DNA of 50,448 nucleotides from Phycisphaerales bacterium (lineage in GTDB: Bacteria; Planctomycetota; Phycisphaerae; Phycisphaerales; UBA1924): assembly GCA_029260475.1 (NCBI GenBank), contig JAJDDE010000022.1:1-50448 (forward strand), in the 5' to 3' direction. Positions 28,809 through 40,728 of this stretch are shown here, one piece after another. The notes beneath the pieces are model-generated. The model saw nothing but the letters and a program-made list of their open reading frames with translations. It was not told the DNA's origin and made no database searches. Position numbers and translations under genes: made by a program. The first letter of the stretch is position 1, and each line of letters starts with the position of its first letter.

Positions 28809-28853
28809 AAGTGGGCGTAACTGGACTCGAACCAGTGACTTCTGCGGTGTGAA
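28809..28853. repeat. Left attachment site: copy of the tRNA-Val 3' part
   Basis: Direct repeat of 45 bp shared with 40652-40696 with one difference (T at 28840 where the tRNA has C). It covers the tRNA-Val from the anticodon loop to the 3' end plus 3 flanking bases. The rest of the tRNA is absent here, as expected for the copy on the far side of an element that enters the 3' end of a tRNA gene. Confidence 0.92.
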
Positions 28854-29106
28854 AGTGGATCACACGCCCTGCCTCTCTGCGATTCGCCCTCTGGCCGAGG
28901 CTCGTAAGTCCAGAAGTTGACTCGTCTTTCAACTATAACGTGGGCTCACGGCGTGTGAGACGCGATCTGACGAGCGGGACGGAAATCGAGCGTCAGCGGG
29001 TCGTTCCGACCCGATCCGATCCCGCGTTTCGAGCGATGAACTCCATTGCTTTGGATGAGAGCCTGTTTGCGATCGGTTGCAGCCCGTGAGTGTCCGAGAC
29101 AACGGG

Positions 29107-29135
29107 TTGACGCCTTCGATGAATCACGATAATGT
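29107..29135 (+). promoter_or_regulatory. Promoter of the element's replication genes
   Basis: TTGACG (29107-29112) and TAATGT (29130-29135) are exactly 17 bp apart, a near-consensus sigma-70-type promoter, about 155 nt before ATG 29291. It lies in the 437-bp gap 28854-29290, which otherwise holds no gene I can support. Confidence 0.6.
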
Positions 29136-29290
29136 ATGTACGGAGTCTGACCAACTCTCTCGCAGTCGGAGAACACCGCCTGCACTCGCCCCCGTCCCAC
29201 GGAGGCTCGCTTCGGCCTGTATGACCGTTGCGAGAGCGAGTGTTCGTGTTCACCGCGTCCGCCCGGACGCCGCACTTGCGAGGGTCAGAC

Positions 29291-29566
29291 ATGCCGCTCG
29301 AACAAGAAGCCCTGATAGACCTCGATGATGCTGTCGAGGTCTACGAAGAACGCACGCGTCATCGCCCCAACCGTGCGACGGTCTTTCGCCACGCTCTGGA
29401 CGGGATTCTGTCCCCCGCTGGCGAGCGGGTGTACCTAGAGCACATTCGAGTCGGGAGACGGATCTACACGTCTCGACAAGCGATCGAACGCTTCTGGGTC
29501 GCGTCGAGCAACGCGTCGAACCGTCGAGCACGCTCACGAACTCGAAACGAACGCTGCCAAGCCTGA
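29291..29566 (+). CDS. DUF1580-like small DNA-binding-type protein
   Basis: 91-aa basic protein. The stretch ALIDLDDAVEVYEERTRHRP, then ATVFRHALDGILSPAGERVY, then LEHIRVGRRIYTSRQAIERF follows the pattern of DUF1580 proteins from Planctomycetes. That is a helix-turn-helix similar to excisionase/MerR-type winged helices (two helices, then a wing with GRRIYTSxxAIxRF). ATG 29291 has GAGGG 7 nt upstream. As the first gene of the element's rightward unit it is a candidate directionality factor or regulator. The Arg/Asn-rich C-terminus may add DNA contacts. Confidence 0.75.
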   Translation: MPLEQEALIDLDDAVEVYEERTRHRPNRATVFRHALDGILSPAGERVYLEHIRVGRRIYTSRQAIERFWVASSNASNRRARSRTRNERCQA

Positions 29567-29664
29567 CCGCGACTTCACGCGGTCCGACGGTCGGTCTGCG
29601 TCACTCAACGAAAGGGCTGCACCGGGACAGTTGGTAACACCCGATGCAGCCGAGGTACTTAGCA

Positions 29665-31455
29665 ATGGATTCTAGCGACGAAAACGTTGCGATTCCCGTC
29701 ATCGACCGACGAGGCGAGGAGTTCAGCGGCACACGATTCCCCGAGGACTTCTTCGTCTACGTCGACGAAGAACCGGGCTACTACGAGTTCGATCGCGGCA
29801 CGATCGAACTGCGTCCCACTCCCGGCTCTGACAACCAGTTACTCGCTTATTGGATCGAGACGGACAACCCGGAACACGACGGGGCGGAACGCTGGACCGG
29901 CGAGCGATGGTGGAAGCAGGAGCGTGTACGCCGTCAGATCGAACGCGAGATCGCGGAACGCTCGCACGGCGGGAAACTGGTTCTCCCCGAGTCGAGCCCA
30001 TCACAGTGGGCAGAGATGTATCTGACGGTCAATCACACGTCGGTACTCGGCTACGGAGTGACGATCAGAACGCTCGTCTGGTGGCAGGGATCGTTCTGGG
30101 AGTTCGATCGGGCGAAACGGCAGTACGTCGCGGTTGAGAGCGAGACGATGCGTCACCGGGCGTTCCGGTTCCTCGAACGAGCGGTGTGTCGGTACACGAG
30201 CAAGGACCGGCGGGTGTCTCACGCGGCGTTCGATCCCGAACCGTCACAGGCTCGCAAGCTCGTCGAGGCACTGGCCGCGAAGTGCGACCGCGAGATGGAT
30301 CACGCTTCTCGGTTCTGGCTTCACCCGACTTACCGAAAGGACATGGGCGATCCGACGGAGATGCTGGTATTCGAGGATCGTGCCGCTCGGGTCAACAACT
30401 GGCTCGGCGAAGCACGGGCTGCTCGTCATCGCGGAATCGTCTGGGTGCGGGATGAGAGTCTGTTCTGCACCGAGGCCCTCCCCTACCCGTATCCGGGCGA
30501 CGATGACGGATCGTACGAACAGCCGCGTCCGCAGTTCGTGGCGTGGCTCGAAGATCGCTTCGGGCATGATCCGGGACAGATCGAAGTCGTACAGGAGTGG
30601 TTCGGGCTGTGTCTGACGAACGACACTCAGTTTCATAAGGCTCTGTACGTCCACGGACCCGCTCGCTCGGGCAAGTCCACGCTCGCACGTCTGCTCAGCA
30701 AGCTCGTGGGCGAGTACAACACCGCGACGCCGACGCTTCGTTCACTCACCCAGCAGTTCGGACTCTCGCCGCTCGTAGGCAAGCCACTTGCGATCATGGC
30801 CGATGCGAAGTTCACGGTCCGCGATCAGAGCGTGGCGACCGAGCGGCTGAAGTCGATCGTGGGCGAGGACACGATTCAGATCGAGCGAAAGTACCGAGAT
30901 CCGCAGAGCGTGCGGCTCTCCACCCGGTTCGTACTGATCTCGAACGACCAACTCGATCTCCGGGATGACTCGGCAGCGTTGGCAAAGCGGATGCTGTGCC
31001 TGACGATTCCCCGCACGTTCTACGGAAGCGAAGACCCGACGATCGAACTGAAGCTCGAACGGGAGATGCCGAGCATCTTGATCTGGGCGATACGGGGTCT
31101 CGCGAGACTCCGATCACGCGGCCGCTTCGTCGAGACGTCGCTGATGAAAGCCGCTCGCTCTGAGGCCGAAGAAGCGGGCTCGCCGCTCCGGGGATTCGTC
31201 GAATCTCGGCTCTCGGTCACAGACGATCACGACCCGCGACGGGCTCCAACGTCACGAGACGTCTACGACGACTACTGCGAGTGGTGTGTCGATGCCGGGG
31301 TTGACCGGAAGGCGATCTACCACTTCGTTCGCGAACTGATGGTCGCCGAGCCTCGCATCCGTAAGACCCGCCAGACGTCGGGCGAGCGACTGTATCTGTT
31401 GACCGGGATCTCGCTTCTCAATCCCTCGTCAGACGCTCGCGTCGGGAGGCTCTGA
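29665..31455 (+). CDS. Phage/plasmid D5-type (SF3) replicative helicase
   Basis: 596 aa. The C-terminal half is an SF3 helicase as found in P4-type primase-helicases. Walker A YVHGPARSGKSTLARLL at about 328-344, Walker B LAIMADAK at about 373-380, motif C RFVLISNDQ at about 420-428, followed by ALAKRMLCLTIPRTFYGSED, the arginine-finger region. N-terminally there is the D5_N-like linker (PQFVAWLEDRFGHDPGQIEV, then QEWFGLCLTNDTQFHKALYV). The first 200 residues do not show primase catalytic motifs (no DxD or TOPRIM pattern that I can see), so a primase may be missing or diverged. Start ATG 29665 is preferred over ATG 29644 because GAGG precedes it. The candidate origin lies directly downstream. 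Confidence 0.85.
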   Translation: MDSSDENVAIPVIDRRGEEFSGTRFPEDFFVYVDEEPGYYEFDRGTIELRPTPGSDNQLLAYWIETDNPEHDGAERWTGERWWKQERVRRQIEREIAERSHGGKLVLPESSPSQWAEMYLTVNHTSVLGYGVTIRTLVWWQGSFWEFDRAKRQYVAVESETMRHRAFRFLERAVCRYTSKDRRVSHAAFDPEPSQARKLVEALAAKCDREMDHASRFWLHPTYRKDMGDPTEMLVFEDRAARVNNWLGEARAARHRGIVWVRDESLFCTEALPYPYPGDDDGSYEQPRPQFVAWLEDRFGHDPGQIEVVQEWFGLCLTNDTQFHKALYVHGPARSGKSTLARLLSKLVGEYNTATPTLRSLTQQFGLSPLVGKPLAIMADAKFTVRDQSVATERLKSIVGEDTIQIERKYRDPQSVRLSTRFVLISNDQLDLRDDSAALAKRMLCLTIPRTFYGSEDPTIELKLEREMPSILIWAIRGLARLRSRGRFVETSLMKAARSEAEEAGSPLRGFVESRLSVTDDHDPRRAPTSRDVYDDYCEWCVDAGVDRKAIYHFVRELMVAEPRIRKTRQTSGERLYLLTGISLLNPSSDARVGRL

Positions 31456-31492
31456 TGGTGGTGCTCAGATCACGTCTAGCACTCTCTGTGCT

Positions 31493-31616
31493 TGCTAGTC
31501 CGTGCTGGACGGCTGGACGGATTTTCCGCTCGGGGCGTCATCGAACGAGCGTGGAATGTCTCCGGATGACGCCCCGGACGCCGAATCCGTCTAGCACCGT
31601 CCAGCACGGACTAGCA
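31493..31616. repeat. Long inverted repeat, arms about 50 bp, 22-nt loop
   Basis: The outer 20 bp are perfect (31493-31512 with 31597-31616), the inner 12 bp are perfect (31531-31542 with 31565-31576), and the part between matches at 12 of 18 positions. That gives 44 of about 50 paired positions around the loop 31543-31564. It lies in the 452-bp noncoding stretch right after the helicase gene and could be part of the element's replication origin. Confidence 0.85.
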
Positions 31617-31673
31617 GTCGGACGGAGTGCTAGACGTACGTTTTTCCGCGTTCAGAGCCTCCCAGCCACGATT

Positions 31674-31808
31674 CCGTCTAGCAGACCAGCAGAAGTCTCA
31701 AAAACTTTCTCAGCCAGATAACAGAGGAAAGAAGAGAGCGAGACGGCGGATCTGCACGCGGAACACGCTGAGAAATGTTTTCGCCGGAACTGCTGGTCTG
31801 CTAGACGG
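31674..31808. repeat. Second inverted repeat, 19-bp perfect arms
   Basis: 31674-31692 is the exact reverse complement of 31790-31808. The arms contain TGCTAGACGG-like text, which also appears in the first inverted repeat (near 31587) and as a single copy at 31627-31635, so the region has an iteron-like word GCTAGACG in both orientations. The 97-nt interior includes an AT/purine-rich stretch at about 31700-31740 that could be an unwinding element. Confidence 0.8.
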
Positions 31809-31907
31809 ATCGGCCCGGATCACCCTCGAAGTCCCGCCCGTCGTCACGCCCATTGACAGGGACAGACGACCAATCTTGCAACTGAGTGCATACACGAAAG
31901 GACAGAT

Positions 31908-32618
31908 ATGCAGACGAACGACACACGCCTCGAGATCGATGAGAAGCAGATACGAGAGTTCCGAGACGCGATCGCTCGCAAGATCCCGAACGAAGCGGCC
32001 GTACTCGAATACCTCGACCAACTGACATACGACGCAGCGTTGAAGTACCACGATCAGTTATCTCCGAACGAGGTCACGGCCTCGACGCTCTGGGCGACAG
32101 CAGATCGATTCAGCGGGCGAGAGCCCATGCAACGCGTCGACGCCACTCAGGGCGTCACAGACGCTCACACCGACGCTCTGACGCGTAGCCCTCGACTGCC
32201 TGATGATCAGCGTGCGACGAAAGCCGGATCTCGGATCGAGGCCCTACGTCGCCGGACCGACCCGATCGAACTGCTGCGGATGCTCGCGTACGAACTGATC
32301 ATCGCGAACCGTGAGTTCACGCCGCTCGAACTCGCTGTCACCGAATACCTGGGCCTCTCCCAAGTCGATCTGTTCGTGCCGTCCGAACCGCTCATGGAAC
32401 TCGCGGGATTCGAGGGCCGAGACCCCTCGTCGCTCGACGACAACGAGGCGGGGAAGGTGCATCTCGCAGCGTTCATGTACTCGGTGCTCGACCTCGAACG
32501 TCGTACGCCGACGTCGGATCAGCTTCGGCAGTTCGACGTCGAGTGCGATCGACTGCGAGGGGCATTTCAGATGCTCCCGTGCCGCGATTCTCATGGCTAC
32601 TATGATTCACGGCAATAA
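31908..32618 (+). CDS. Element protein of unknown function
   Basis: 236 aa, not recognised. ATG 31908 has AAAGGA 8 nt upstream. Mostly alpha-helical and charged (IDEKQIREFRDAIARKIPNE, then ALRRRTDPIELLRMLAYELI), without signal peptide, membrane segment or catalytic motif that I can see. Two Cys only near the C-terminus. It is the first of five genes in close order (31908-34435) and begins right after the inverted-repeat region, so a link to replication or packaging is possible but unproven. Confidence 0.7.
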   Translation: MQTNDTRLEIDEKQIREFRDAIARKIPNEAAVLEYLDQLTYDAALKYHDQLSPNEVTASTLWATADRFSGREPMQRVDATQGVTDAHTDALTRSPRLPDDQRATKAGSRIEALRRRTDPIELLRMLAYELIIANREFTPLELAVTEYLGLSQVDLFVPSEPLMELAGFEGRDPSSLDDNEAGKVHLAAFMYSVLDLERRTPTSDQLRQFDVECDRLRGAFQMLPCRDSHGYYDSRQ

Positions 32619-32653
32619 TCGATACCCTCACTGTTCCGTCAAAGGAGACACGT

Positions 32654-33388
32654 ATGACTCAGATGACTCAGATGACAGGTCAAGACATTCGACAGATCGC
32701 CGCGTTCGGCGGTCACGGCATCCCGCAAGACGTGCCCGAGGAATACGAGTCGCGACCAGAGGCGGCGAAGATCCTCCGCTTCGTCGCGGAGAACCTCGGA
32801 CGACTCGACGGGCTGATCACAGACTTCGACGACGAGGCCGAACGAGTCGATCGCTCTAAGAGCTTCACCAAGATCGGACGCGAGCAGGAGATGGGCCGCG
32901 TCGCTCTGGAGTTCGGGCGTCGAGTCGACACACTTCGCGTTGACGATCAGTTCCTGCCCGCTGCTCGACAACGTCTGGCGATCGAACAAGAGCGTGTGGG
33001 CGAGAGCCGAGGGCCGGGGCTCTCGTTCGCCGATCGCGTGGCACTCAACATCGCGATCCGTCAGTGTCACGAGATCACGCCCGAGGCCGAGATCATCGGT
33101 CCGTACCGCTCGATCGCAGAACAAGCGATCGAGAGCGGGGACGATCAGACACTCGAAGCGTTGCTGGGCGTACCGGCTTCGATCAGCCCGTTCGAGGACG
33201 AAGATCGACAGGAACTCATCGACAGTTGGAACGCCGCTCGCTCGCCAGTGCAGGCACGACTGGTCGCGGATCTTCGACGGGCGATCTCGGCTCTCGAATC
33301 TCGGCTCCGCGTCGTCCGCACCCGCATCGCCAGCCGCACCGGCACGAACGACCCGCTGCGTCAGGTAGCGAGCGGCGGGAACGCGTGA
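32654..33388 (+). CDS. Element protein of unknown function
   Basis: 244 aa, not recognised. AAAGGAG precedes ATG 32654 by 7 nt. Acidic N-terminal half (EEYESRPEAAKILRFVAENL and GRLDGLITDFDDEAERVD) and a helical C-terminal half ending in a basic coil (RRAISALESRLRVVRTRIAS). No enzymatic motif seen. Its stop overlaps the next start (TGATG), so it is translationally coupled to the 130-aa gene that follows. Confidence 0.7.
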   Translation: MTQMTQMTGQDIRQIAAFGGHGIPQDVPEEYESRPEAAKILRFVAENLGRLDGLITDFDDEAERVDRSKSFTKIGREQEMGRVALEFGRRVDTLRVDDQFLPAARQRLAIEQERVGESRGPGLSFADRVALNIAIRQCHEITPEAEIIGPYRSIAEQAIESGDDQTLEALLGVPASISPFEDEDRQELIDSWNAARSPVQARLVADLRRAISALESRLRVVRTRIASRTGTNDPLRQVASGGNA

Positions 33389-33780
33389 TGGGCGACTCCG
33401 ATCAGATCGAACAGTCTGAGTCGCAGACGCTTCGCGACGATCGCGGTCGGTTCGTCAAAGGCACGCGAGGCGGACCGGGCAACACAACCCCGAAGAAAGT
33501 CGCTCGCCTGCGGTCGAAGCTCATCGAGTTCGTCGAAGAACACGACGCTCTGAATCACATCGTGAGCCAGCTCATCCAGATCGTGATAGATCCGAACGAA
33601 CACCCGCTCTCGCGGATCAAAGCTGCGGAAGTCGTGCTGTCGTACACGCTGGGCAAGCCGACAGAGGGGCTGGACGTCATCGCAGAGGTCGAAGCCCTGC
33701 ACGCTCGACTCTCGCTCGACAGCCCGACCATGTCGTTCAGTCAGACCGTTCGCCGGGGCTTCCTCGCGGGTGACGAATGA
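33388..33780 (+). CDS. Phage-type protein, DUF5681- or small-terminase-like
   Basis: 130 aa from ATG 33388. The N-terminus LRDDRGRFVKGTRGGPGN is the R-x-(G)RF-x-KG-x-x-GGPG motif found in DUF5681 and related phage proteins at the start of terminase-region genes. The rest, VARLRSKLIEFVEEHDALNH, then IVSQLIQIVIDPNEHPLSRI and KAAEVVLSYTLGKPTE, is a helical repeat-like domain also seen in small terminase subunits and relatives. The stop overlaps the next start (ATGA). If it is a small terminase, the element could be packaged by a helper phage; without other packaging genes this is only a suggestion. Confidence 0.65.
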   Translation: MGDSDQIEQSESQTLRDDRGRFVKGTRGGPGNTTPKKVARLRSKLIEFVEEHDALNHIVSQLIQIVIDPNEHPLSRIKAAEVVLSYTLGKPTEGLDVIAEVEALHARLSLDSPTMSFSQTVRRGFLAGDE

Positions 33781-34073
33781 GCGTCGCCGCGATCGCGAAG
33801 AAGCTCCGAGCGGAAGCCGCTCGGCGTGCGAACGATGCCGAACGCGTGGTCAAACTTCGTCTCGTCATGTGCGAGGCACTCGCAGGCATGGAACTCGTTG
33901 AGGAACTCGACGCGTGGAATCCCCCGACTGTCAGTGAGTGCCAAGTCCTTGCACGTCAGTATGTCGATCGCGTCGCGAACCGCATGGGCGACGTACCGCA
34001 GCACCCAGACGCACCGACATTGCTCGATCAGATGGCCGAGCGTCTCGCTCACCAGTTCGGAGAGCCTGCGTGA
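33777..34073 (+). CDS. Small element protein of unknown function
   Basis: 98 aa, ATG 33777 overlapping the previous stop. A helical, basic N-terminus (SVAAIAKKLRAEAARRANDA) is followed by an acidic middle (CEALAGMELVEELDAWNPPT). No match recognised. Position after the DUF5681-like gene and coupling on both sides (the next start overlaps its stop, GTGA) argue that it is expressed. Confidence 0.6.
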   Translation: MSVAAIAKKLRAEAARRANDAERVVKLRLVMCEALAGMELVEELDAWNPPTVSECQVLARQYVDRVANRMGDVPQHPDAPTLLDQMAERLAHQFGEPA

Positions 34074-34435
34074 CAGTCCAACGCTCTGAACTCGCGGTGC
34101 TCGGCACACCGGGCGTGATATACGCACACGACGCGGGGGTCGCGTCGTACAACCTGAGACAATCCAGCAGCGAGCTACTCAAGTACGTGTCAGAAAACGA
34201 TCTCTCTGGCAATCCACAGAACGACGATCACGCCAACGACGCCGTAGAAGAGTTTGCCAGCTTTGCTAGTCGGGTCCAGCATCTCAATCCAAACGGAATC
34301 CCGTCCACTGCCTGCTCCGCCCATCAGTCATCTCCAATGTCGGTACGAATCCGCGAAGAACCAAAGGGCTCCCAGCGTACACCAAGGGGAGTCAGTGGAA
34401 TCGCCTGCGAGATCGCGGTGGAAAAGTACGACTGA
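34070..34435 (+). CDS. Possible small element protein
   Basis: 121 aa from GTG 34070, which overlaps the preceding stop in the GTGA pattern used elsewhere in this window. The text (SSSELLKYVSENDLSGNPQN, then AVEEFASFASRVQHLNPNGI) is hydrophilic and soluble; the last third is Ser/Pro-rich and poorly protein-like. No Shine-Dalgarno sequence of its own. It may be a coupled gene, a decayed one, or a chance frame. Confidence 0.4.
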   Translation: MTVQRSELAVLGTPGVIYAHDAGVASYNLRQSSSELLKYVSENDLSGNPQNDDHANDAVEEFASFASRVQHLNPNGIPSTACSAHQSSPMSVRIREEPKGSQRTPRGVSGIACEIAVEKYD

Positions 34436-34644
34436 CCAGAGAACCACCCTCGCGGCTTCAGATCCATCGAAAGCGATGGACGCTACTCGGATCTCGTCTC
34501 TCGCCCCGACGCTCTCGCTCGCTCCCTACGGGATCTCGTTCGAGACGACCCCCGAGTAGCTCGATCGCTCGCGGACGCAGCACAAGACGTCTGAGACGCG
34601 GGAATCACAATCTGATCAGGGCCTGCGTGCGGCCCGTCTCCTTT

Positions 34645-34684
34645 CACGACCCCGTTCGATCTCCGAGCGGGGTCGTGTTGTTTT
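34645..34684 (+). terminator. Rho-independent terminator after the five-gene row
   Basis: CACGACCCCG (34645-34654) pairs with CGGGGTCGTG (34668-34677), then TTGTTTT. It lies in the 334-bp gap 34436-34769 between the small genes and the second recombinase; apart from the palindrome at 34704 I see nothing else there. Confidence 0.7.
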
Positions 34685-34703
34685 CTGCTTGCCCCTCTCA
34701 GGG

Positions 34704-34719
34704 TTGACTCTAGAGTCAA
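34704..34719. promoter_or_regulatory. Palindromic operator before the second recombinase
   Basis: TTGACTCTAGAGTCAA is a perfect 16-bp palindrome 50 nt before ATG 34770. A further half-site TTGACTC occurs at 34740-34746, and a second palindrome TGACGTCA at 34725-34732. This is the arrangement expected for a dimeric repressor controlling the recombinase; the first half-site could also act as a -35 element. Confidence 0.5.
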
Positions 34720-34769
34720 GTGAATGACGTCAATGTGTATTGACTCCCGACCCGATCGCGAGGCCCAGA

Positions 34770-35834
34770 ATGACGAACGAGATCACGTTCACCACCGCAG
34801 AACTCAGGCGACTGGCGTTGCCGGGAATGCGTCCGCTGCCTGAACGCGACCCGGTTCTCGCGTACTTCAACTCGCTGACGTCAGAGAACTCTCGCGACGG
34901 GATGACCAAGGCACTTCGATCGGCCCTACGGATCATTCTCGAACGACCGATCATCAAGACCGAGAGCGGGCGAACTGTCGTGTCGGTAACGACCGACGAG
35001 CTTCACGAGTTCCCGTGGGATCAACTGACGCCCGCCCACGCAGCCGCGATCCGAGCGTCGATCGCGGCCTCCGATCTCTCGACCGCGTCGAAGAACAAGA
35101 TGATCAACGGCATACGCGGGGTCATCAAGTCCGCGTGGCGTCTCGAACTCATCGACGGCGAACGCTCGGAACGCGTGCGTGACGTGCTCAAGACGATCAA
35201 GGCCGTGTCGGACGAGCCGTCAGGCCGCTACGTCGAGTGGGGAGAACGCAAGGCCCTATTCAGAGTCTGCGGACGTGACGACACGCCTCGGGGTGCTCGC
35301 GACGCGGCGACGCTCGCCCTGCTGTGCATCGGGCTCAGACGCTCGGAAGTTCGCTCGCTGAACATGAGCGACTTCGACCCCGCGACCGGGCGACTCGCGA
35401 TCCGACAGTCGAAGGGCGGTCGGACGCGGAACATCTACGTCGACAACGGGGCACTCGAAGCGATGAAGCTCTGGCTCTCGGTCCGAGGCGACGAACGCGG
35501 TGCGTTGATCCTGCCCGTCACCCGCTCGGGTACGACCGTGCTTCACACGAAGAAGCCGCGAGGCAGCACGGCCAAGAAGCCAGCACGGATGACCGACAAC
35601 GCGATCTACGCGATCCTGAGCCGTCGCATCGACGAAGCGGGGATCAACCCGTTCACGCCCCACGACCTGCGTCGCACCGTGATCTCCGACCTGCTCGACA
35701 GCGGGGTCGATCTCCCGACCGTGCAGGCCCACGCTGGGCACGCGAACCCGATGACCACCGCCCGATACGACAGACGCGGCGATCGGGCGAAGCGGAAGGC
35801 GGCTGGGACGATCGAGGTGCCGTTTTCGACCTGA
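34770..35834 (+). CDS. Tyrosine recombinase (XerC/phage integrase family), internal
   Basis: Site-specific recombinase, 354 aa. The catalytic set is visible: Arg in LCIGLRRSEVRSLN (about 190), Lys in RQSKGGRTR (about 215), HDLRRT (about 297-302), HAGHANPMT (about 319-327) and nucleophile Tyr333 in TARYDRR. N-terminal SAM-like core-binding domain with LTPAHAAAIRASIAASDL. Start ATG 34770 has CGAGG upstream. It lies in mid-element, not next to an attachment site, so it may act in resolution of multimers or be the remnant of a second element. A palindromic operator precedes it. Confidence 0.92.
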   Translation: MTNEITFTTAELRRLALPGMRPLPERDPVLAYFNSLTSENSRDGMTKALRSALRIILERPIIKTESGRTVVSVTTDELHEFPWDQLTPAHAAAIRASIAASDLSTASKNKMINGIRGVIKSAWRLELIDGERSERVRDVLKTIKAVSDEPSGRYVEWGERKALFRVCGRDDTPRGARDAATLALLCIGLRRSEVRSLNMSDFDPATGRLAIRQSKGGRTRNIYVDNGALEAMKLWLSVRGDERGALILPVTRSGTTVLHTKKPRGSTAKKPARMTDNAIYAILSRRIDEAGINPFTPHDLRRTVISDLLDSGVDLPTVQAHAGHANPMTTARYDRRGDRAKRKAAGTIEVPFST

Positions 35835-35911
35835 GCTATCACGCAGTCTTCTTAGAGTTTCGCCGGAGCGGTATGATTGGGGAGACCACGCCGATCCACG
35901 GAGAACCTGTG

Positions 35912-38095
35912 ATGACTGCAAAGATGAAACTCGTTGCCTTCCGAGTTACGACCTACCGCTCGGTCGAAGACAGCGACTGGATAGACGCGGACGACGTCAC
36001 CGCCATGATCGGCACAAACGAGTCCGGCAAGACCAACCTCTTGCTGCCGCTGTGGAAGCTCAACCCGGCGAACGAAGGGGAAATCAACCTCCTCTCCGAT
36101 GCCCCGCGAAAGGACTACAGCTCAATCCGAAACATGGAGCCGAAGCCGGACTTCATTCATGCTCGCTTTGAACTAGCCGAAGCCACAGCCAAGATGGTAG
36201 CGATACAAAGTGGCAGGCCGATTGAAGAAATCCAGACGGTCGAAGTCTGCCGCGACTACGACGGTCACTACGGCGTTCACTTTCCCAACGCGAATGAAGT
36301 GAATGCTGTTGAAGCAGCGGAAGTGGTTGGCCTGCTTCGTAGCGGCCACTCCGAGATCGAGGGTATGCAGCCGTCAGGTAAGTCAGACACTGAACTCAAG
36401 GCCGCACTGATCTCCGCAGTCTCCTCTGCACTCGAACAGGCATCTCAGCATGAGGGCGACTTTGACGCCGAAGCACTTGAGAGTCTTTCTACGTTTGTAA
36501 CTGCTGGTGCGATTGAGTCTGCACCCACTCGCTCGACCGTTGCACCGCGATTTGGCCAGCTTGCCGATGCCATCACGAAACTCGTACAGAGGCTCCGCAA
36601 GCCTGGGCCGGGCGAGAACGAAAAAGTGACGGAGATGATTATCAAGTGGCTGCCGTCGTTCGTGTACTACTCGACATACGGCAATCTGGACTCGGAAATC
36701 TACCTCCCGCACGTCATCGACGACCTCGATCGAGACGACTTGACGGGCAAGGCCGAAGCCCGAGCACGAACACTCCGAGTGCTGTTCAGCTTTGTGCAGC
36801 TCTCGCCGCAGGAGATTCTCGAACTTGGTCGCGATTGGGACAGTCAAGGTCAGCCAACACAGGAGCAGATCGAATCACTGAACGAGAAGAAGAAGGAACG
36901 AAGCGTCCTTCTGCAATCAGCCAGTACTACGCTCACAGAAAAGTTCCGCGAGTGGTGGAAGCAGGGCGAGTACCGCATCAGATTCGAGGCTGACGGCAAC
37001 CACTTCCGCATCTGGGTTTCAGACGACAAGCGGCCAGAAGAGATCGAACTAGAGGGTCGCAGTACTGGGCTCCAGTGGTTCCTAAGCTTCTATCTCATCT
37101 TCCTTGTCGAGAGCAGCAAGGCTCACAACGGAGCAATCTTGCTGCTTGATGAGCCGGGACACTCTCTGCACCCGATCGCCCAGAACTTCTTGTCGGAGTT
37201 CTTTGAGAGCCTCGCTGCATCGAACCAGCTTCTCTACACGACGCACTCACCCTTCCTCGTCGACGCCGACCACCTAGATCGAGTGCGTGCTGTCTTCGTT
37301 GATGATGATGGGCATACGAACGTCTCGTCGAATCTGCGGGCCGGACAAGTCGCAGCCAAAGCCAACTCGATCTATCCGGTGCACGCCGCTCTCGGCCTGA
37401 GCGTCTCTGACACGCTGTTTCAGGGATGCAAGATCGTCATCGTGGAGGGGCAGTCCGATCAGCTCTATCTCAGTGCGATCAAGACCGCACTCGTATCACT
37501 CGGCAAGTATCAGCCAAAGCAGGAGTTGCTGTTCGTGCCAACATCGGGGGCGAAGGCGATCAAGACCGTTGCTGCGATTCTGAGTGGGCGTGAAGGCGAT
37601 CTTCCGCACGTCCTCTGCGACGCCGACCATGCAGGACTAACTCTCGCGAGCACTCTCCGCAGCAGCCTCTACAGCGATTCCCAAGCCTCGATTCACACCA
37701 CCGGCGATCTTCTGGCGATAGAGAACACAGAGGTTGAAGACCTGATCCCTGCATCGTTCGCCTCACCGACTCTCGACCGTTATCTCAAGGGGCCTATCGA
37801 TCGGCCGTTCACCCTGTCTGAAGATCGACCGATCGTCCCGCAGGTCAAAGAGTACGCCGAAGCCAACGCGATCGAACTATCGAAGGGCTGGAAGGTGGAG
37901 GTCGCGAGGCTGATGAAGTTGCGACTTGCTGCCACAGACCTCAGCACGAACGATTGGACGGAGGCCGTGAGCATCTGGGTCAAGCTCTTTGAGTCACTCG
38001 ATCCAAAGAGTGCATCATCATCGAACGCAAAGCCCATAACGCAGGTCGAGCGGCTGCCGAACCAGACGGCGGCAGAGACCAACCGATCGTCTTGA
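35912..38095 (+). CDS. OLD-family ATP-dependent nuclease (AAA ATPase plus TOPRIM)
   Basis: 727 aa. ABC-type ATPase domain at the N-terminus: Walker A GTNESGKTN at 34-42, Walker B ILLLDEPGHSLHP at about 407-419, and the TTHSPFLVD H-loop at about 443-451. The C-terminal TOPRIM domain shows IVIVEGQSDQLYLSAI at about 507-522 and HVLCDADHAGLT at about 565-576, the acidic metal ligands of OLD nucleases. A long coiled insertion lies between the ATPase halves. It is not followed by a UvrD-like helicase, so it resembles stand-alone class 1 OLD proteins rather than Gabija GajA. OLD of phage P2 excludes lambda; by analogy this may be the element's defence gene. GGAGA precedes ATG 35912. Codon use looks less GC-rich than its neighbours. 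Confidence 0.9.
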   Translation: MTAKMKLVAFRVTTYRSVEDSDWIDADDVTAMIGTNESGKTNLLLPLWKLNPANEGEINLLSDAPRKDYSSIRNMEPKPDFIHARFELAEATAKMVAIQSGRPIEEIQTVEVCRDYDGHYGVHFPNANEVNAVEAAEVVGLLRSGHSEIEGMQPSGKSDTELKAALISAVSSALEQASQHEGDFDAEALESLSTFVTAGAIESAPTRSTVAPRFGQLADAITKLVQRLRKPGPGENEKVTEMIIKWLPSFVYYSTYGNLDSEIYLPHVIDDLDRDDLTGKAEARARTLRVLFSFVQLSPQEILELGRDWDSQGQPTQEQIESLNEKKKERSVLLQSASTTLTEKFREWWKQGEYRIRFEADGNHFRIWVSDDKRPEEIELEGRSTGLQWFLSFYLIFLVESSKAHNGAILLLDEPGHSLHPIAQNFLSEFFESLAASNQLLYTTHSPFLVDADHLDRVRAVFVDDDGHTNVSSNLRAGQVAAKANSIYPVHAALGLSVSDTLFQGCKIVIVEGQSDQLYLSAIKTALVSLGKYQPKQELLFVPTSGAKAIKTVAAILSGREGDLPHVLCDADHAGLTLASTLRSSLYSDSQASIHTTGDLLAIENTEVEDLIPASFASPTLDRYLKGPIDRPFTLSEDRPIVPQVKEYAEANAIELSKGWKVEVARLMKLRLAATDLSTNDWTEAVSIWVKLFESLDPKSASSSNAKPITQVERLPNQTAAETNRSS

Positions 38096-38154
38096 TGTCT
38101 CAACGTTGACAAGACCCGTTCACAGACTGATCCTTGGCACCTGTCAACACAGTT

Positions 38155-38976
38155 CTACTTGTTGAGCAACCTGCGATCTCGTCGCCTGCGAAGCGTCGCA
38201 ACTGCCAAGACCATCGACAGCGGACCAAGCGTTCCGGTTGACGGAACGATCGAGAACGCGACCAGATCGAGGTTCGCATTGTTGTAGTTCGACGGGTTGT
38301 CGCCGGCCGCTAGCACGAAACTCGCGGTGATCCTCGCCGAGCGAGAGCCGAGCGGCACGTCTCCCGCGATGTCACGGAACTCCGAGAAGTTCCTGAACCC
38401 AACGAACGTGAACCCCTCGTCGTTGACGAGTCCCGCCTGCGGCTCGGTCGGTCCGACCAGCATCGCGTCACCGACGATGAGCCCCTCCGAATCGAGAAAC
38501 TCGATAGTGACCATCGTCTGGTCGGCTTCGCCACAGCATCCTCGCAAGCCGTCGGGGGAGGGCCGGTTGAACGAACCGAGCCAACCCGACAAATCGAATC
38601 GTGCTTGACCCTCGTCGATGAGATCGCTCGCGAAGTCCATCGAGATCGTCTGAGTGATCGATGTTCCCGCGTCACCTCCGAAGAGCACCCACTCACCGGC
38701 GTTGGGCGGAACGTCGTTCTCGTAGTTCGGTGAGGGCTCCCAGAAGTCACCGGTGTAGAGATCGAGCGACAGTGTGCCCGACTCCTCCCAGCCGACCAAG
38801 TCTGCGAGTAGCCCAGTCTCCGTGATCACGGGCGGAGGGCCGTCCGACCCTTCGAGTTCATCGAACGACTCGAAGCTCCCGTTGATCACGAGATTCTGCC
38901 CGAGCATCGGGCTTCCGTATGCAGCGTGCGTTGCCACGAAGCACACAGCTATGGCGATTGACACGAGTCTGGACAT
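38155..38976 (-). CDS. Secreted PEP-CTERM-type protein carried by the element
   Basis: 273 aa exported protein. ATG 38976 has GGAGGA 5 nt upstream. Signal peptide MSRLVSIAIAVCFVATHAAY, cut near AYG/S. The mature domain opens GQNLVINGSFESFDELEG, a start typical of carbohydrate-binding-like jelly-roll domains (DUF642/CBM-like, LVxNGSFE), with strand-rich text to residue about 240. The tail VPSTGTLGPLSMVLAVATLR followed by RRRDRRLLNK is a PEP-CTERM-type sorting signal. It points against the OLD gene, so it is a separate transcription unit. Such a host-type surface protein on a mobile element suggests a cargo that alters the cell surface or attachment of phage. Confidence 0.83.
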   Translation of the reverse strand: MSRLVSIAIAVCFVATHAAYGSPMLGQNLVINGSFESFDELEGSDGPPPVITETGLLADLVGWEESGTLSLDLYTGDFWEPSPNYENDVPPNAGEWVLFGGDAGTSITQTISMDFASDLIDEGQARFDLSGWLGSFNRPSPDGLRGCCGEADQTMVTIEFLDSEGLIVGDAMLVGPTEPQAGLVNDEGFTFVGFRNFSEFRDIAGDVPLGSRSARITASFVLAAGDNPSNYNNANLDLVAFSIVPSTGTLGPLSMVLAVATLRRRRDRRLLNK

Positions 38977-39138
38977 GTCTTCCTCCGTGGACGAGAGCGG
39001 CAGGTCACGCCGTCTGTTTCAGGAGCAAGTATACGGATTCTGTGCTGTTCATCAACTTCGATGATCTCGTGAGGCGTCGCGAGTTCTCGGACTCGTTTCT
39101 AACTATTGCTTATATCCGGCGGGCGACGCGACTTGCGT

Positions 39139-40530
39139 TCATGCCGACTGCTTGTGGATCACACACCCGATGTCCACAGTCGGGGGGTGCAGATATCTCT
39201 GGGTGGTCGTAATCGACTGGTGCCCGAGCTTGAACATCCCACGCTCGATGCCCTCGTTGAGCACGATCTCGGTCGCGGCGGTGTGACGCAGGTCGTACGG
39301 CGTCCACGCACGGACTCCCGCCTTCTTCACCGCACGTCCGATCGATCGTCCAAACGTGTCTTTCGTCCACGGTCGGTCTGCCGGTCGTAACGGGTTCTCG
39401 GCCCGACGAGCGTCGCGTGAACGATTGCACGACAGATACGACTGACGAGCTTCGCGACGGGCGGATGCTCGCTCGGCCTCGCTCTTTGCGGGCGTGAAGA
39501 TCAGTTCGTTCGCCCGGCAGTCGTGAACGTACGGTTCGAGAATCACGACTCCCGCTTCTGGGATCTCGATCCGACGTTCGTACCCGTGATGCTCGGTCTT
39601 GTGATGCTCGGGGCGGTAGATCCAGACGTCGCTCGTCTGTTCGATCGCACCGGGTGTCATCCCGAACAGTTCGGACGGTCGCATCCCGGTCAGACGCAAG
39701 AGCATCACCATGTCGCGGAGATGCTGGGTCGGCAGGTGCGGGAGTGTCGCATACAGATCGCTGATCGAGATGAGCCGGATCTGTCCCTCGGTTCGCGGAC
39801 GCCGGGTCACGATCAGCGAGCGTCGGCTCACGCTCTCGACGTCCTTGAGATCGTTCACGACGTTGCCTAGTTCGGGAAGCCGACGCTTGTGCATCTTGTT
39901 CGCGTGCTTGAATGCCGCTCGGATAACGGCCATCCGCCCGTTGATCGACGAGAAGCAGAGACGCCCGCTCGCGATCATCTCGTCCCGGATCTGCCGCAGG
40001 TGCTGATCGCGGAAGGACGTGGCGGGCATCATCCCGAACGCCTGACGGTGCGGGTCGAGAAACGCCCGGAACTTCTTGATCGTGCCCTCTGTGACCGGTC
40101 GCTCGACGTCACGCTCGCGGTGACTGACGTACTCGTCGAAGACGTCATTGACGGTCAGGCTCGGTTCTCGGCTCTCGGACCGCCCGAGCGAGCGATTGAC
40201 GTCCGAGTCGTGGACGTACTCGTTGCGGCGACGCCGCTCGGCAGAGCGGAGATCCCGGATCTTGAGTTCGTCCCGGCAGCGGGCCTTGATCTCGGACACG
40301 GCCTGTCGATCGAGCGGCTGACGACCCCGGTCGTTCCACTCTGTCATCAACGCGTAGTAGACGCGTGACGCGAGCGGGCTCGGGCGGTCGTTCTCGCGGT
40401 CCCACGGACCGAGCGTGATCCGAGAACTGGCGATGCGTGCGACAACCGCCGACCCGTTCGCGTGGCGATACGGCTGCGGATCGCCCTTGGGCTTGCGGAG
40501 GACTTTCTTGACCGGGATGCGTCGGGACAT
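39139..40530 (-). CDS. int: Tyrosine recombinase, integrase of the element
   Basis: Site-specific integrase, 463 aa, beside the intact tRNA-Val, the usual place for the enzyme that inserted the element. Catalytic residues: Arg in LLRLTGMRPSELFGMT (about 300), Lys in EHHKTEHHGYERR (about 330), YDLRHTAATEI (the first His of the HxxR box is Tyr, as in some phage integrases), LGHQSITTTQRYL with His and the nucleophile Tyr. N-terminal domain is rich in Arg/Lys with an arm-binding look (MSRRIPVKKVLRKPKGDPQP). Start ATG 40530 has AAGGAG 6 nt upstream. Confidence 0.95.
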   Translation of the reverse strand: MSRRIPVKKVLRKPKGDPQPYRHANGSAVVARIASSRITLGPWDRENDRPSPLASRVYYALMTEWNDRGRQPLDRQAVSEIKARCRDELKIRDLRSAERRRRNEYVHDSDVNRSLGRSESREPSLTVNDVFDEYVSHRERDVERPVTEGTIKKFRAFLDPHRQAFGMMPATSFRDQHLRQIRDEMIASGRLCFSSINGRMAVIRAAFKHANKMHKRRLPELGNVVNDLKDVESVSRRSLIVTRRPRTEGQIRLISISDLYATLPHLPTQHLRDMVMLLRLTGMRPSELFGMTPGAIEQTSDVWIYRPEHHKTEHHGYERRIEIPEAGVVILEPYVHDCRANELIFTPAKSEAERASARREARQSYLSCNRSRDARRAENPLRPADRPWTKDTFGRSIGRAVKKAGVRAWTPYDLRHTAATEIVLNEGIERGMFKLGHQSITTTQRYLHPPTVDIGCVIHKQSA

Positions 40531-40610
40531 GGAGGCTCCTTAGACGTCACGCAGGGTCGAGATCAAAGATCCGACCCGTTGCAAGACTTCATGAGCCTCC
40601 ACATTGGGAA

Positions 40611-40643
40611 CCTGATCCCGCCGCAACACGCGGCGGGATCAGG
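40611..40643 (-). terminator. Strong hairpin between tRNA-Val and the integrase
   Basis: A perfect 14-bp stem (40611-40624 with 40630-40643) around the loop AACAC lies 12 nt after the 3' end of tRNA-Val on the minus strand. No marked T-run follows (TTCCCAAT). Because the original terminator was separated by the insertion, this element-supplied hairpin probably ends the tRNA transcript or shapes its 3' end. Confidence 0.6.
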
Positions 40644-40651
40644 GCTTAGAG

Positions 40652-40696
40652 AAGTGGGCGTAACTGGACTCGAACCAGTGACCTCTGCGGTGTGAA
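40652..40696. repeat. Right attachment site within tRNA-Val
   Basis: The intact partner of the repeat at 28809-28853; 44 of 45 bp identical. It includes the 3' half of tRNA-Val, from its anticodon loop to the discriminator, plus 3 bases beyond. Confidence 0.92.
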
Positions 40697-40728
40697 CACA
40701 GCGCTCTAGCCAACTGAGCTATACGCCC
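40655..40728 (-). tRNA. tRNA-Val (anticodon CAC)
   Basis: 74-nt cloverleaf on the minus strand. Acceptor GGGCGTA/TACGCCC, D-arm GCTCAGTTGGCTAGAGC, anticodon stem CTGTG/CGCAG with loop TTCACAC giving CAC, variable AGGTC, T-arm ACTGG TTCGAGT CCAGT, discriminator A. CCA not encoded. Its 3' half is the element's target. Confidence 0.97.

Follow-up and report, generated by a model that had tools for sequence, protein, structure and literature searches.

Integrated element and its genes

The window, that is, the whole stretch of 50,448 nucleotides that was analysed, contains an 11.8-kb element (28809-40651) flanked on both sides by 45-bp copies of the tRNA-Val 3' end. The left, attL-like copy (28809-28853, minus strand) is a scar that is listed as a tRNA by ARAGORN though not scored as one by Rfam, the Rfam scan yielding two tRNAs and nothing else. 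The right, attR-like copy (40652-40696, minus strand) is identical to the left one at 44 of 45 positions and overlaps an intact tRNA-Val (40654-40728). A tyrosine integrase (39139-40530, minus strand) is encoded next to this right copy, and a second tyrosine recombinase (34740-35834, plus strand) is encoded inside the element. A third, internal att copy, which would be a sign of two stacked elements, was searched for in the element, including between the two recombinase genes, and none was found. At the equivalent place in a relative (G467), tRNA-Val lies beside tRNA-Met and is directly followed by other tRNAs, with no element. With a tRNA 3'-end direct repeat at both ends and an integrase, the region is an integrated mobile element.

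The other predicted genes of the element include: a small protein (29228-29566, plus strand) encoded in front of the helicase gene rep, with a weak similarity to DUF1580 that lies below the Pfam cut-off; a small protein (33382-33780) that carries the motif DDRGRFVKGTRGGPGN and could not be confidently assigned to a family, though it may be a mobile-element protein of either the small-terminase or the DUF type; a protein with AAA and Toprim domains (35900-38095) resembling the defence proteins OLD, AriA and GajA, which could be an anti-phage cargo of the element; and an apparently secreted protein (38155-38976, minus strand) with a signal-like start, a C-terminal anchor-like tail (PEP-CTERM-like by eye) and no Pfam family. 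Terminase and capsid families were not recognised among the scanned genes of the element, four short genes of which have no family.

P4-family helicase

The rep gene (29644-31455, plus strand) encodes an SF3 helicase of the P4 family (TIGR01613 / DUF5906) of 603 amino acids, scoring 138.6 bits against TIGR01613 (cut-off 108.7). A profile built from Rep and 19 relatives matches the primase-helicase of SaPI5 (7ola, E 8.5e-29), and its positions 525-596 match the winged-helix DNA-binding domain of RFX5 (E 2.9e-6), so that a C-terminal winged helix is predicted at about residues 525-596. The AlphaFold2 model of Rep (pLDDT 82.5) matches the fold of 7ola with a TM-score of 0.68 by target length; besides SaPI5, the structure search returned the D5-type helicases of poxviruses and ASFV as remote fold matches. 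A Prim-Pol domain was detected neither in Rep nor in the other scanned genes of the element, unlike in two relatives (L040 and L092), in which it is present. Priming would therefore have to come from the host or from an unrecognised gene.

Repeats behind the helicase gene

The stop codon of rep is at 31455, and the DNA between this gene and the next gene in the same direction is occupied by two blocks of repeats. Together they comprise some 12 copies of one 10-bp word, TGCTAGACGG, present in both orientations and often spaced 8-10 bp apart. Block 1 (31472-31637) is a near-palindrome of 166 nt holding eight of these iterons, located at 31472 (minus), 31493, 31503 and 31511 (plus), 31587, 31597 and 31607 (minus) and 31628 (plus). 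Block 2 holds four iterons in a perfect 20-bp inverted repeat, whose left arm (31673-31692, minus orientation) carries those at 31674 and 31682 and whose right arm (31790-31809, plus orientation) carries those at 31791 and 31799; its inner words are three positions off the TGCTAGACGG consensus. The arms are separated by a 97-nt spacer (31693-31789), the proposed melting region, which is moderately AT-rich (51% AT, against 39% in the element and 35% in the window) and contains 63% purines.

The original prediction had described a hairpin at 31493-31616 with about 44 of 50 positions paired. Indeed, these 124 nt fold into one hairpin of 51 pairs, in which 31493-31512 is the exact reverse complement of 31597-31616. 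The exact inverted match reported between 31674-31692 and 31790-31808 was recovered as well and extends to 20 bp, and the word was found in both directions within both repeat sets as announced, the arms themselves being arrays of it. A further copy at 31627 had been taken as single; this word (31628-31637, TGCTAGACGT) has an inverted partner at 31472-31481, with which it pairs, so that the first palindrome spans 31472-31637. Block 1 as a whole folds with 69 pairs.

These repeats stand apart from the rest of the window. Eleven words with at most two mismatches are present in the region, compared with 0.31 on average and never more than 2 in 109 other tiles, and the matches to TGCTAGACGG in the window cluster at this one place. 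Among the inverted repeats of the window, blocks 1 and 2 take the top two places (scores of 23 and 20, the next being 14), the highest score reached in 300 dinucleotide shuffles of the region being 12, and the z-score of the region folded as DNA is -9.8. The cumulative GC skew, which had been suggested as a check, has its maximum near 31.3 kb, close to the site, but this signal is weak and its sign is opposite to the leading-strand pattern. A DnaA-dependent iteron plasmid origin, with DnaA boxes and a non-helicase winged-helix Rep, was considered and rejected, since no DnaA box was found in the element and Rep is a helicase.

Occurrence and layout in relatives

A homologue of the helicase is encoded in 78 of the 397 genomes of the same class that were sampled. 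The named homologue loci belong mostly to Planctomycetota, and also to Actinomycetota, Proteobacteria, Chlamydiae and others, with many viral contigs; some of these names come from metagenome bins and are possibly incorrect. Viral contigs scanned with the Rep protein alone gave no relative, whereas the scan with an alignment as query did. In one genome a second, distant P4-family helicase with 29% identity is encoded (L033, G000:C126:2236-2967), and no strong inverted repeat was found in its fetched flank.

The closest helicases are about 36% identical to Rep. The DNA behind the helicase genes of the relatives differs in sequence, but its layout recurs: iterons, a spacer, then inverted iterons. 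A lack of conservation of the arms in relatives, together with a lack of replication activity, had been named as evidence that would refute an origin; the sequence of the arms is not conserved, but their layout is. The proposed search for the iteron word gave no close relative with the same word beside a helicase. In 41 of 59 loci of relatives (counted from the output), no other inverted repeat of the locus is better than the one directly behind the helicase gene. Strong repeated words, defined as repeated 10-mers scoring at least 3.4 (a fixed threshold, applied together with control tiles), were found behind the helicase at 79 of the 192 loci, compared with 12 of 902 control tiles (Fisher p 2e-53, an optimistic value owing to near-duplicates among the viral loci), and upstream of the helicase gene in 10 of 170; about 60% of the loci of relatives are below the threshold.

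Minimal relatives have the layout of block 2 alone, while in larger ones (e.g. L037, L051, L063 and L067) the main inverted pair is preceded by a further block of iterons that contains an inverted pair of its own. Block 1 resembles this upstream block, here in the form of an inverted duplicate. The giant hairpin is not unique to the window: when 191 origins were folded locally, the window ranked fourth in stability, though with the most pairs among those listed.

The median length of the spacer in relatives is 84 nt. Twenty-nine of the 31 measured spacers are either more than 8 percentage points AT-richer than their locus, the type to which the spacer of the window belongs, or contain an alternating purine-pyrimidine run of at least 12. 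In 23 of 71 loci, the 300 nt that follow the helicase contain an alternating run of at least 15, compared with 15 of 2756 control tiles. In about a third of the relatives, GC/CA alternating runs rather than an AT-rich stretch lie between the iteron sets (L037, L045, L046, L051, L063, L064, L066, L067, L068 and others); such runs could possibly act as Z-DNA-prone melting regions. Six relatives (L045, L055, L063, L066, L067 and L068) also share short boxes near the spacer, such as AAGGACTTAC, which lies between the blocks, and GCGCAATGGGA / GCGCACAATGGG, located at the right end; these boxes were not seen in the window.

Iteron similarity is correlated with helicase similarity (Mantel rho 0.31, p 0.001, 43 loci), more weakly so in 64 loci (0.10-0.16). 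When the covariation was used to look for the domain that sets specificity, the C-terminal 120 residues gave partial values of 0.18 against 0.03 for the 43 loci and of 0.10 against 0.02 for the larger set, a weak hint that they may carry slightly more of the signal. This covariation is weak overall and not separable from shared ancestry.

Comparison with known origins

The origins of 'PICI' elements are reported to lie immediately 3' of rep and to consist of an AT-rich region with an iteron set on either side, a layout described as unique among known replicons, and rep together with the origin supports plasmid replication in tests (PMC6092414). The locus studied here is similar to those of PICIs and SaPIs in several respects: (i) the repeats (31472-31809) lie immediately 3' of the gene of a P4-type helicase Rep, (ii) two iteron sets (31673-31692 and 31790-31809) surround an AT-richer stretch, though only moderately so, and (iii) Rep is homologous to the SaPI5 protein and is encoded in a chromosomally integrated element with an integrase. 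It differs from them in that no pri (primase), fused or separate, was recognised in this element, that neither terS nor a repressor nor a dependence on a phage is shown here, that an extra inverted iteron block forms the 166-nt palindrome, and that the host, to judge by its relatives, is a planctomycete.

A second point of comparison is the Streptococcus thermophilus phage Sfi21, in which an 'origin of replication, phage inhibitory sequence' is annotated directly behind the primase gene (AF115103, 34487-34784). The family profile recognises the Sfi21 primase at 2e-36, and in the origin perfect 18-bp arms of two iterons each enclose an AT-rich spacer of 71 nt. Like the repeats of the present locus, this origin lies directly behind the gene of a homologous primase/helicase, with arms and a spacer as in block 2. 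In contrast, the Sfi21 word is of the GTAAC type, the origin is much more AT-rich and has no giant palindrome, and Sfi21 is a complete phage rather than a small integrated element.

Satellite P4, whose helicase belongs to the same TIGR01613 family, integrates at a tRNA gene. Two cis sites lying apart (ori1 and crr) serve its replication, and a primase domain is part of its alpha protein; in the present element, neither a distant pair of cis sites nor a primase domain was found. The original prediction had compared the placement of the repeats with that of P4-type origins. The comparison was right for the helicase, which is of the family named after P4, but the layout of the origin is of the PICI/Sfi21 kind.

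Interpretation of the repeat region

The region 31472-31809 is very probably (probability of about 0.87) the replication origin of the 11.8-kb element, which would be bound and melted by the element's own helicase. An origin had been predicted here, and this reading gains support from a layout that is conserved in its position behind homologous helicases and from the annotated origin of Sfi21. In its layout the proposed origin is of a known kind, shared with PICIs and Sfi21, whereas its host group, the lack of a recognisable primase domain in Rep and the giant palindrome of iterons are unusual.

The SaPI Rep and other SF3 initiators bind iterons with a winged helix, melt the spacer and load the helicase. 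By analogy, Rep, encoded directly upstream, would bind the TGCTAGACGG iterons through its C-terminal winged helix and, at the inverted pairs of block 2 (31673-31809), would melt the AT-richer spacer. It would then load as SF3 hexamers on both strands, and replication would start after excision of the element. Block 1 would be an extra upstream iteron set carried as an inverted duplication, hence the 166-nt palindrome, and probably adds binding sites or copy-number control, or may act as part of the origin proper.

A different division of the region, possible but distinctly less likely, is that block 2 alone is the origin and that block 1 is a separate device, which might for instance serve in copy control or handcuffing, or act behind rep as a very large terminator or attenuator. 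Several features of block 1 point in this direction: its iteron polarity is opposite to that of block 2, its GC-rich centre of 70 nt forms its own, non-iteron hairpin, a run of five T follows it, and minimal relatives as well as Sfi21 do without it. Nevertheless, its arms are built from the same iterons as those of block 2, and an upstream iteron block with an inverted pair is also found in the larger relatives named above. Regarding a terminator, the scan for terminators and promoters picked nothing at the repeat site. A more far-reaching proposal, which we consider speculative and rather unlikely, is that the palindrome, as an inverted duplicate of the upstream iterons, forms a second module with a function of its own, which would control or direct initiation by a primase-less Rep, and that the origins of the P4 family would have two types of melting region, AT-rich and alternating purine-pyrimidine (Z-DNA-prone), with fast-changing iteron words.

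Readings without an origin at block 2 fare worse. Multiple inverted words are typical of operators, and the genes on either side of the region point in the same direction, so that Rep or a regulator could control downstream transcription from it; this is nevertheless improbable, as arms about 85 nt apart, with a spacer that is either AT-rich or alternating, recur behind the helicase across many lineages, and this anatomy is shared by the annotated origin of Sfi21. A single-strand origin and a recombination site had been named as alternatives for block 1, and both are less likely than the reading preferred here. The 166-nt hairpin is very stable as single-stranded DNA (-66.7 kcal/mol), as would suit rolling-circle-type replication, but this is very improbable: no HUH-type Rep was found among the scanned genes of the element, the initiator is a D5/P4-type SF3 helicase, and paired iterons occur in many relatives and in Sfi21 without so long a hairpin. 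There is hardly more to be said for an attP or resolution site of a tyrosine recombinase, despite the two integrases of the element and the resemblance of the inverted words to arm-type sites, given that the element has its attachment sites at its ends, in the 45-bp tRNA-Val copies, that the nearest recombinase gene is about 3 kb away and that the repeats track the helicase in relatives. Finally, long inverted repeats in non-coding DNA could be dispersed repeats or remnants of an inverted-repeat transposon; the probability of this is negligible, the region occurring once in the genome of the organism, as the original prediction required of an origin, and single copies of its 13-mer core GTCTGCTAGACGG being found in only 3 of the other 399 genomes of the order, which is no more than expected by chance.

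In summary, the origin proposed for this element is a candidate in a host group for which no paper on phage satellites was found in the literature searched. The survey of relatives shows that the origin layout described for 'PICI' elements generally accompanies P4-family helicases, across many bacteria and phages, while the iteron words change fast. The loci gathered here would form a large natural set for learning how P4-family initiators choose their origins, and may include possible origins for planctomycete plasmid vectors.
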